From Schizochytrium sp. TIO01 (lineage: Eukaryota > Sar > Bigyra > Thraustochytrida > Thraustochytriidae), in NCBI GenBank assembly GCA_004764695.1, contig SMSO01000014.1, forward strand, positions 1-32,426: a stretch of DNA of 32,426 bases, read 5' to 3'. Made by a program: the position numbers and the translations under genes. The notes beneath the pieces were generated by a model that worked only from the letters and a program-made list of their open reading frames with translations, made no database searches and was not told where the DNA came from. This document shows positions 22,747-28,598 of this stretch, piece after piece; positions within the stretch are counted from its first letter, which is position 1; each line of letters begins with the position of its first letter.

Positions 22747-25700
22747 ATGTCAGACCACGCACGTGTTGTCGCTGCCCTTGAAGAGCTTCAGAATGGCGCT
22801 ACAACACTGAAGTAAGTTAACACGCTTGCTTGCTTGCTTGCTTGCTTGCTTGCTTGCTTGCTTGCTTGCTTGCTTGCTTGCTTGCTTGCTTGCTTGCTTG
22901 CTTGCTTGCTTGCTTGCTTGCTTGCTTGCTTGCTTGCTTGCTTGCTTGCTTGCTTGCTTGCTTGCTTGCTTGCTTGCTTGCTTGCTTGCTTGCTTGCTTG
23001 CTTGCTTGCTTGCTTGCTTGCTTGCTTGCTTGCCTGGGTAGTCGTTTGTTTTGTTGGATCCCAAGTTCATGCGATTGCTTGTTTGGTTGATTTATTGGTA
23101 TGCATCCATCAAAACAAAGAGCAAAATGACAAAACGACAAAGACAAATGCTGAAAGCCAACCTAGATCACTCACGTCCATGCATGCATGCGTACATCTAT
23201 TGTAATATGTAACGTGTAATGTATTGCTTGCCATCATTCATTCAAATCGACAGTCTTCGTGCGAACAATATCGGCGACGAGGGCGCCAAGGCAGTGGCTG
23301 CGGCGCTGAAAGAGAACCGGTCGCTGACATCACTTGAGTAAGTTGTCTACGCAACAGCGCAGCTCGTGGACTTGTTTGTACATGATGCTTGGTTTGTTGT
23401 TTGGTGGGTGGGTCGGTGTTGTTTTGCAAGTTTATGCAATCGCTTGTTTGTTTGATGGATGGATGGGTTGTCTGTTTGAGTGAGTATACATCCATCGAAC
23501 AAAGAGCAAAATGACAACACAACAAAGATAAATGCTGAAAGCCAACCTAGATCACTCACGTCCATGCATGCATGCGTGCATCTATTGTAATATGTAACGT
23601 GTAATGTATTGCTTGCCATGATTCAATCAAATCGACAGTCTTTTTGGCAACAAAATCGGCTCAGAGGGCGCCAAGGCAGTGGCTGCGGCGCTGAAAGAGA
23701 ACCGGTCGCTGACATCACTTGAGTAAGTTGTCTACACAACACCGCAGCTCATGAACTTGTGTGTACATGACGCTTGTTTCGTTGGTTGTTATTTTGGTCG
23801 GTGTTGTTTTGCAAGTTTATGCAATCGGTTGTTTGTTTGATGGATGGATAAGTTGTCTAATTGACTGAGTACGCATCCATCGAACAAAGAGCAAAATGAC
23901 AACACAACAAAGAGGAAATGCTGAAAGCCAACCTAGATCACTCACGTCCATGCATGCATGCGTGCATCTATTGTAATATGTAACGTGTAATGTATTGGTT
24001 GCCATCATTCAATCAAATCGACAGTCTTGGAAACAACTTCATCCGCGACGAGGGCGCCAAGGCAGTGGGTGCAGCGCTGAAAGAGAACCGGTCGCTGACA
24101 TCACTTGAGTAAGTTGTCTACGCAACACCGCAGCTCGTGGACTTGTTTGTACATGATGCTTGGTTTGTTATTTGGTGGGTGGGTCGGTGTTGTTTTGCAA
24201 GTTTGTGCAATCGCTTATTTGTTTGATGGATGGATGAGTTGTCTGTTTGAGTGAGTATACATCCATCGAACAAAGAGCAAAATGACAACACAACAAAGAC
24301 AAAATGCGGAAAGCCAACCTAGATCACTCACGTCCATGCATGCATGCGTACATCTATTGTAATATGTAACGTGTAATGTATTGGTTGCCCTCATTCAATC
24401 AAATCGACAGTCTTAGAAACAACCAGATCGGCTCAGAGGGCGCCAAGGCAGTGGCTGCGGCGCTGAAAGAGAACCGGTCGCTGACATCACTCAAGTAAGT
24501 TGTCTACGCAACACCGCAGCTCGTGGACTTGTTTGTACATGATGATTGGTTTGTTGTTTGGTGGGTGGGTGCGTCGGTGTTGTTTTGCAAGTTTATGCAA
24601 TCGCTTGTTTGTTTGATGGATGGATGGGTTGTCTGTTTGAGTGAGTATACATCCATCGAACAAAGAGCAAAATGACAACACAACAAAAATAAATGCCGAC
24701 AGCCAACCTAGATCACTCACGTCCATGCATGCATGCGTGCATCTATTGTAATATGTAACGTGTAATGTATTTCTTGCCATCATTCAATCAAATCGACAGT
24801 CTTGATAACAACGATATCGGCTCAGAGGGCGCCAAGGCAGTGGCTGCGACGCTGAAAGAGAACCGGTCGCTGACATCACTCAAGTAAGTTGTCTACGCAA
24901 CACCGCAGCTCGTGGACTTGTTTGTACATGATGCTTGGTTTGTTGTTTGGTGAGTGGGTCGGTGTTGTTTTGCAAGTTTATGCAATCGCTTGTTTGTTTG
25001 ATGGATGGATGAGTTGTCTGTTTGAGTGAGTATACATCCATCGAACAAAGAGCAAAATGACAACACAACAAAGACAAAATGCGGAAAGCCAACCTAGATC
25101 ACTCACGTCCATGCATGCATGCGTACATCTATTGTAATATGTAACGTGTAATATGTATTGCTTGCCATCATTCAATCAAATCGACAGTCTTTCTGGCAAC
25201 GATATCGGCTCAGAGGGCGCCAAGGCAGTGGCTGCGGCGCTGAAAGAGAACCGGTCGCTGACATTACTATCGTAAGTTGTCTACGCAACAGCGCTGCTCG
25301 TGGACTTGTTTGTACATGATGCTTGGTTTGTTGTTTGGTGGGTGGGACGGTGTTGTTTTGCAAGTTTATGCAATCGCTTGTTTGTTTGATGGATGGATGG
25401 GTTGTCTGTTTGAGTGAGTATACATCCATCGAACAAAGAGCAAAATGACAACACAACAAAGATGAAATGCTGAAAGCCAACCTAGATCACTCACGTCCAT
25501 GCATGCATGCGTGCATCTATTGTAATATGTAACATGTAATGTATTGCTTGCCATCATTCAATCATATCGACAGTCTTACAAACAACCAGATCGGCGACGA
25601 GGGCGCCAAGGCAGTGGCTGCGGTGCTGAAAGAGAACCGGTCGCTGACATTACTATTGTAAGTTGTCTACGCAACACCGCAGCTCGTGGACTTGTTTGTA

Positions 25701-28598: not shown

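Follow-up and report, generated by a model that had tools for sequence, protein, structure and literature searches.

The window analysed here is a stretch of 32,426 nucleotides, the first 32,426 bases of the 7.46 Mb contig SMSO01000014.1 in the 64.06 Mb, 37-contig assembly GCA_004764695.1 of the single-celled marine thraustochytrid Schizochytrium sp. TIO01, and its subject is an array of leucine-rich repeat (LRR) cassettes on the + strand. The array is a single gene composed of a first exon, twelve LRR exons of 84 nt and a last exon. When spliced, these give one open frame of 462 codons in which all introns are in phase 2. Exon 1 (22747..22811) contains the ATG, the N-cap MSDHARVVAALEELQNGATTL and a split codon followed by a phase 2 donor, gtaagt, and an exon homologous to it is found in 20 of 24 arrays (see below). 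An earlier note on this DNA had placed 12 intact exons at 23254..27991, and all are present, each of 84 nt and bordered by AG and GTAAG. In every unit four codons of variable identity, termed x, can be located: x1 at exon nt 5-7, x2 at 8-10, x3 at 14-16 and a split x made of nt 83-84 plus the first base of the next exon. From known LRR structures we take these positions to lie on the concave face of the repeat.

The codons listed for these positions in the earlier note all match the sequence. Reading x1, x2 and x3 in order, they are CGT GCG AAT in LRR exon 1 (23254..23337), TTT GGC AAA in exon 2 (23639..23722), GGA AAC TTC in exon 3 (24025..24108), AGA AAC CAG in exon 4 (24411..24494), GAT AAC GAT in exon 5 (24800..24883), TCT GGC GAT in exon 6 (25188..25271), ACA AAC CAG in exon 7 (25574..25657), TCT GGC AAA in exon 8 (25951..26034), CAT GGC AAT in exon 9 (26337..26420), TTT GGC AAT in exon 10 (26723..26806), GAT AAC CAG in exon 11 (27108..27191) and GAA GAC AAT in the terminal LRR exon (27908..27991), which ends in KVNWSLAEL and is identical in all 84 letters to the terminal unit of another array, L009. 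The count of twelve holds for intact units, but a damaged 13th unit with broken frame and splice sites lies between exons 11 and 12 at approximately 27502..27590. Its 590-nt neighbourhood, in the stretch 27300-27910, differs from a sister copy by 21 insertion runs (30 bases), one deletion run and 59 mismatches; unpolished sequence or assembly error, decay, or both are possible causes. The last exon (28283..28598, stop at 28596-28598) encodes a tail of ~104 amino acids ending in GPYIFE. Intron 1 contains a (GCTT)52.5 microsatellite (22824..23033, + strand), and GCTT runs of at least 6 copies occur somewhere in 20 of 23 further loci fetched from the genome (L009-L031), where they are possibly a recombination or regulatory element.

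Scanning the spliced protein against Pfam gave five LRR models above cut-off, and the 28-residue repeats match LRR_6 (PF13516) over 12 stretches with an E-value of 8.5e-87. Ribonuclease inhibitors are among the best PDB matches, and the repeats are, judged by sequence, of the 28-residue ribonuclease-inhibitor type. A match to SpoU_sub_bind was the sum of weak repeats with no single stretch passing. The same scan of the spliced protein found no NACHT or NB-ARC domain, none of the LRRNT/LRRCT cap families and no ROC-COR, and the start MSDHARVVAALEELQNGATTL is not signal-like by eye. The tail matched no Pfam family and a search of 5.8 billion proteins (240 candidates) gave no relative at E 0.001, hence it is referred to as the orphan tail.

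Within the window, the mean nucleotide diversity (pi) is 0.554 at the 9 nt of x1-x3 against 0.0415 in the rest of the exon, leaving out the codon at nt 23-25 and nt 82-84, while 10 introns average 0.0505. When 9 other columns were drawn at random 100,000 times, no draw was as diverse as x. Variation at the x codons had been proposed to lie above intron divergence and it does so by a factor of about ten. The introns and the 3' part of each exon had also been described as homogenised. The introns are indeed nearly identical, but the end of the exon is uneven with nt 82-84 hypervariable and codon 23-25 dimorphic.

The 84-nt phase-2 LRR exon is present in ~500-600 copies in the genome, of which the window has 12 or 13. 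A pattern for the exon core gave 488 genome matches at up to 2 mismatches and a looser one gave 609, other LRR subfamilies included, while the orphan tail gave 40 matches, one of them partial. The array set consists of the window plus L009-L031, 24 arrays in total, and samples 23 of the 40 tails, one of them cut. Of these arrays 20 have exon 1, which in L018 is matched over 15 of its 22 residues, and in the remaining four (L011, L012, L013 and L020) the available sequence ends 90-570 nt beyond the first unit, approximately the length of intron 1 or less. The tail was found in 22, L031 being cut by the fetch and L025 having a ROC-COR-TIR module in place of the tail. Wherever both ends of an array are in view (19 arrays), exon 1 is present together with a C-terminal module, either tail or ROC-COR-TIR. 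AG and GT borders 84 nt apart were present in 298 of 303 exon matches. Splicing was followed through for the window gene only and the exon junction was inspected in L025.

For the comparison across arrays, the 303 matches from 24 sources were reduced to the 298 with intact borders, to 289 at score 70 and, after removal of the near-duplicate arrays L012 and L024, to 271 exons from 22 arrays. In this set the proportion of nonsynonymous differences (pN) at x is 0.609 (0.59-0.63, array bootstrap) and that of synonymous differences (pS) is 0.518, while the other exon codons have pS 0.089 and pN 0.048. There are 20 kinds of residue at x1, 16 at x2 and 14 at x3, with 42 codons at x1. Since the x codons are saturated (pN/pS ~1.2), a plain dN/dS test at x is uninformative. 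Intron diversity and per-base pi were calculated from 227 full units. Intron pi has a mean of 0.061 and a median of 0.044, with single columns up to 0.54. Per-base pi is 0.68-0.74 in x1, 0.41-0.72 in x2 and 0.70, 0.21 and 0.68 in x3. Outside x1-x3 it is 0.51-0.53 at codon 23-25, 0.55-0.67 at nt 82-84 and 0.40 at nt 45, and all remaining exon bases are at or below 0.13. The variable blocks are bounded by the codon, as nt 5-10 have 0.41-0.74, the silent Leu base at nt 4 only 0.086 and the silent nt 13 only 0.061.

Several features, the codon edges of the variable blocks among them, suggest that the x codons are filtered for what they encode. No stops are observed at x1-x3 where base frequencies predict 25.6, 5.9 and 7.5 respectively (~39), and the middle base of x3 is A in 201 of 227 units. 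Together with the excess variation at x, the absent stops and the retained A of x3 support the diversifying selection suggested in the earlier note. At each x site a single codon per residue dominates beyond what wobble frequencies would give, and the within-residue codon heterozygosity falls below all 500 simulations, which fits alleles that arose a few times and then spread.

The cassettes appear to have been exchanged between arrays. In linkage tables built from 206 or 192 units with neighbours on both sides, normalised mutual information is 0.27 for intron sites up to 3 nt apart and drops to 0.03 at distances of 21-50 nt, and linkage decays within tens of nucleotides in introns and exons alike. 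There is hardly any association between the x codons, codon 23-25 and bases 82-84. Adjacent x1 and x2 are linked and x1x2 with x3 weakly, the same x3 being found in 0.20 of pairs from different arrays sharing x1x2 versus 0.11 overall. Where units from different arrays have an x1x2 hexamer in common, the difference between their flanks is 0.82-0.94 of that in carrier/non-carrier pairs. For rare hexamers (2-4 carriers) the ratio is 0.44-0.79 within 30 nt, indicating somewhat more sharing, and for intron alleles shared by different arrays it is 0.79-1.16. Taken together, the flank and linkage results indicate that the cassettes behave as one well-mixed pool. The LRR cassettes also have a lower pS (0.089) than the dS of their own family's tails (0.23), as expected if the cassettes are homogenised.

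A pool of this kind could in principle go back to a single mixing of founder cassettes that had already diverged, which recombination then shuffled with no ongoing selection. Some sites do look like old founder variants, namely codon 23-25 (TCA/GAC), nt 45 (C/G) and nt 82-84 (three main states), and an older subfamily of LRR exons already varies at x1 and x2 while its x3 is mostly AAC. However, x1 has 20 residues and 42 codons next to bases with pi <0.09, a diversity that demands far more founders than any other site shows, and drift and conversion would presumably have thinned the x alleles as they did the intron alleles. A founder mix as the whole explanation is improbable.

The earlier note had raised, as an alternative to selection, a targeted process. 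Under such an explanation template-directed, deaminase-driven or other local hypermutation writes the x codons and selection merely filters them. The saturation of x codons including silent changes (pS 0.518), the hypervariable silent base 82 and the three-base difference between TCA and GAC at codon 23-25, with few intermediates, are all of the sort that such a process might leave. Recent duplicates, however, keep their x codons. Among 15 recently duplicated unit pairs with 0.47% backbone divergence there are 0 differences in 135 x-site comparisons, and 14 pairs that differ at no more than 4 of 671 backbone positions show no x change either, though the pairs are not independent, only about three comparisons are both independent and informative, and an x rate a few times the background is still compatible with them. 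Two arrays, L012 and L023, are 99.9% identical over 6.9 kb and another two, L021 and L024, are 99.6% identical over 7.8 kb; all 18 units common to the members of these pairs have the same x residues. The one x change seen, of a single base, distinguishes the terminal unit of L020 from those of L012 and L023 and lies outside the 135-comparison matrix. A fast targeted process is thus not supported. Silent bases 4 and 13 are near background, and the constant A at nt 11, 12 and 17 beside nt 5-8, which vary through all bases, speaks against adenine-directed mutagenesis and is not the pattern of a diversity-generating retroelement, the template of which was not searched for. No reverse transcriptase was seen in the 5 open reading frames scanned with Pfam out of 48 of at least 160 aa in the window and L009-L031.

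Two related ideas were considered and set aside. Units with near-identical backbones and different x codons might be taken as a sign of hypermutation, but such pairs resemble near-consensus units and shared intron alleles equally lack shared flanks. Silent donor cassettes, which the note proposed to look for elsewhere in the genome, were not seen as a class, the 19 of 19 both-ended arrays having exon 1 plus a C-terminal module and looking like whole genes. As the x alleles, like the intron alleles, mostly lack shared flanks between arrays, ordinary recombination suffices to explain their distribution. Diversifying selection within a recombining cassette pool is well supported, with selection the presumed cause, and a targeted mutation process is not needed; we regard it as very unlikely.

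The cassettes are not confined to genes with the orphan tail. In L025, exon 1 and ten cassettes are followed by an exon whose frame of 853 residues contains, according to Pfam, ROC (3e-18), COR-A (1.3e-11) and TIR_2 (5.1e-13). The TIR piece alone matches TIR_2 at 2.6e-14 and also anti-phage TIR models such as ThsB at 4.7e-8. Searching the genome with the L025 exon gave 39 matches, of which eight, query included and one split over two rows, are long with at least 42% identity. Three further ROC-COR-TIR-like exons align as far as query residue 851-853; the presence of TIR in these three genes is deduced purely from alignment with L025. All three carry cassettes on their 5' side and two of the three have exon 1 in reach. 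One ROC-COR-TIR gene is internal to its contig, at C13:4.08 Mb, and has the same x pattern. This class supplied 48 exons at score 70 (two units in L032 and one in L033 fall below it), with a variation of 0.624 at x versus 0.110 elsewhere, and the ROC-COR-TIR and tail classes have 9 of 32 distinct x1x2 hexamers in common.

The likeness to recognition receptors drawn in the earlier note is strengthened by the cassettes upstream of ROC-COR-TIR in four genes. The window gene has no NACHT/NB-ARC match, and the lamprey parallel is a weaker one (see below). A receptor role for the family is plausible, the more so given the TIR class. The variable surface may also serve some binding other than defence, such as the recognition of self or of mates, adhesion, or the scaffolding of many fixed partners, a proposal which shares its evolutionary part with the receptor interpretation. 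LRRs bind all sorts of partners, a ligand role here is predicted from sequence, and the orphan tail of most members is without an immune domain. Against this, the cassettes are common to the TIR-bearing genes, and a saturated multi-allelic pool would be more typical of arms-race or frequency-dependent recognition. A purpose outside defence appears unlikely.

The gene lies amongst ribosomal RNA genes. A 5S rRNA gene (22162..22280, - strand) is directly upstream and another is at 11316-11434 (- strand), while the 5' part of a small subunit (SSU) rRNA gene (31871..32426, + strand) begins 3.3 kb past the stop of the LRR gene. In the genome, 11 of the 40 tail matches are followed on the same strand by an SSU rRNA gene at a distance of 3.06-5.42 kb. 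By position, 30 of 40 tails are within 200 kb of a contig end, 8 are internal, and 2 are unplaced; four of the eight tails more than 200 kb from contig ends adjoin SSU rDNA and are included in the eleven. SSU rDNA itself has 17 genome matches and lies close to many contig ends. No exact (TTAGGG)5 was found in the genome and the contig ends are not established as telomeres. Subtelomeric rDNAs are reportedly universal in Aurantiochytrium, and the rDNA at contig ends here is reminiscent of this. The common rDNA surroundings may favour exchange between chromosome ends. Near-identical array pairs are found at C7:1.042 Mb and C23:60 kb and at C30:5.52 Mb and C5:1.79 Mb, and SSU rDNA pieces occur inside long contigs; these are possibly recent segmental duplications, haplotypes or contig mis-joins at rDNA.

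This setting is also what might be expected of selfish or decaying subtelomeric repeats homogenised along with rDNA, in which x would be relaxed sites holding old founder variants without function. The 11 of 40 tails beside SSU rDNA, the 30 of 40 within 200 kb of a contig end, the tail dN/dS of 0.80 and the one damaged unit in the window are consistent with such an origin. A relaxed site, however, cannot surpass neutral diversity and x has roughly ten times that of the introns. There are zero stops in 251 exons (266 matches in 21 sources, cut at score 100 and with intact borders) and none in 22 tails, whose median dS is 0.23, and 298 of 303 exon matches have intact borders. The ROC-COR-TIR genes, one of them the internal gene at C13:4.08 Mb, show the same pattern. 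Functionless repeats are a highly improbable explanation.

The minus strand of the window contains LRR exons of an older subfamily, GGCGATGAGGGCGCAAA, in which x1 and x2 are variable too. The pattern gave 91 matches at up to 2 mismatches, some of them from other subfamilies. All 28 exact matches have AAC at x3, as do 11 of the 17 that differ by one mismatch. Strong variation at x3 is thus mainly a trait of the expanded family. The older-type exons are at 7162, 7602 and 8037 and at 18544, 19327, 19757 and 20206 (- strand), that at 19327 being without a donor at the usual place. They belong to two paralogous loci, 4583-8037 and 15243-20206 (- strand), where 84-nt exons of this type lie upstream of long open reading frames for a protein kinase domain, possibly a third class consisting of LRR plus kinase. 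LRR exons of other subfamilies were noticed in L019 (9224), L018 (9270-9547), C4:246-267 kb and C30:8.20-8.21 Mb, those of C4 and C30 adjoining ROC-COR-like matches.

The closest named relatives of the L025 module are LRR-ROC-COR-TIR proteins of another thraustochytrid, Hondaea fermentalgiana. Hondaea proteins with ROC, COR and TIR_2 are on record, several of them with LRRs, and P0123, P0124 and P0125 have the same domain set and order with 44-45% identity over ROC-COR-TIR. They have 28-residue LRRs variable at the same x positions, and their TIR has a CRxEF motif in common with L025 (by eye). They differ in that the LRR motif used here caught only two to four repeats per protein, which are mutually more divergent, and the source names them LRRK2 or NOD2. 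Among the open-licence PMC matches listed, none was seen to describe LRR cassettes of this kind, or ROC-COR-TIR genes, from a thraustochytrid. The available part of a thraustochytrid transcriptome paper mentions LRR protein numbers alone (PMC8917795), and the word TIR does not occur in the accessible text of a Roco review (PMC6337361).

The LRR concave face is the variable surface in nucleotide-binding LRR (NLR) receptors and in the variable lymphocyte receptors (VLRs) of lampreys. The present family differs from NLRs in having no NACHT/NB-ARC match. It differs from VLRs in that no LRR-cap match was found, both-ended arrays look like whole genes and no separate donor set was seen; the lamprey VLR is a weaker parallel than either the brown-algal ROCO genes or the LRR exons of Tetrahymena. 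These latter two are the closest known kinds. As far as the available text goes, the LRR exons of brown-algal ROCO genes (LRR-ROC-COR) are shuffled (PMC11378527 and Zambounis et al. 2012, cited therein) and their concave-face sites are reported to be under positive selection (PMC11378527), and the family described here resembles them in having one LRR per exon, all in phase 2, in shuffled tandem arrays of a stramenopile. There is the same excess of residue variation at concave sites, measured here by diversity and with the concave assignment taken from known structures. LRR-only sequences are reported from brown algae too, and in one class of the present family ROC-COR follows downstream. The differences from that account are an exon of 72 nt there and 84 nt here, LRR-ROC-COR as the sole architecture reported there and TIR after COR here, and, here, the orphan tail in most members, the nearly identical introns and the rDNA neighbourhood. 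Tetrahymena, on the part of PMC6564038 considered, has exact-length phase-2 LRR exons in tandem with similar introns (~257 nt there, ~300 here), its young LRR arrays show an enrichment close to chromosome ends, unequal crossing over has been proposed as the means of exon shuffling, and a link to REP retrotransposons is reported. Its exon is 90 bp versus 84 nt, the TIR class is found here, and the words 'concave' and 'hypervariable' do not occur in its main text (PMC6564038). New relative to these two kinds are the exon length, the TIR-bearing class, the orphan tail, the rDNA neighbourhood and the nearly identical introns.

The above results probably identify the window gene as a member of a large and likely intracellular family of LRR recognition receptors, drawing on a recombining pool of exons with diversifying selection at the concave codons, and we hold this with reasonable though not full confidence. 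Ligand binding, cell location and an immune role are inferred for the family as a whole. The gene plan starts with a constant first exon of ~22 residues and continues with 28-residue LRRs, one to each 84-nt phase-2 exon. At the C-terminus is a module, which is the ~104-residue orphan tail in ~40 genes and, in at least four others, ROC-COR-TIR. Together with their introns, the LRR exons form one genome-wide pool that would recombine across arrays by unequal crossing over and gene conversion, and this would keep introns and structural codons alike. Diversifying selection would retain many alleles at x1, x2, x3 and the split codon so that each gene has its own combination. The variable LRRs would bind and, in the TIR class, a ROC-COR switch and the TIR domain would signal.

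A number of observations count against this interpretation. The silent third position of the final Leu codon, base 82, has pi 0.66 and varies as much as x, which would not be expected from selection acting on residues. Nucleotides 82-84 are mostly one of three trinucleotides (ATC 72, CAA 68 and TGA 45, 185 of 251), and base 82 may vary by hitchhiking with them, which is unproven. Codon 23-25 is likewise a TCA/GAC dimorphism in which all three bases differ with few intermediates. The pS of 0.518 inside x means that whole codons are near saturation. Diversity measures were used rather than PAML or a phylogenetic site model, the assumptions of which recombination violates. Most arrays were selected for their close match to a single unit of the window, and the divergence of backbone and introns is perhaps understated as a result. 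The tails are perhaps weakly constrained given their median dN/dS of 0.80, and the window gene is without a signalling domain, its tail having no known relative. Finally, 14 Hondaea repeats have a variation of 0.88-0.96 at the x positions but up to 0.88 at some helix positions, a weaker contrast.

A more speculative extension, which we consider doubtful, is a standing NLR-like repertoire supplied by the one pool of ~500-600 exons. The ~40 tail genes, many at rDNA-bearing chromosome ends, would then be both proteins and a conversion reservoir for the LRR-ROC-COR-TIR receptors, and binding repertoires directed against viruses or microbes might differ between strains or even cells. To our knowledge, candidate immune receptors are hardly known in unicellular stramenopiles, and thraustochytrids can be cultured and transformed. 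The family offers hundreds of comparable exons in one genome with neutral sites (intron and silent) and selected sites (concave) a few bases apart, so that selection, conversion and mutation can be separated. The link between hypervariable cassettes and ROC-COR-TIR offers a concrete hypothesis for signalling. The exon-shuffling receptors of brown algae may, moreover, be part of a wider stramenopile habit.

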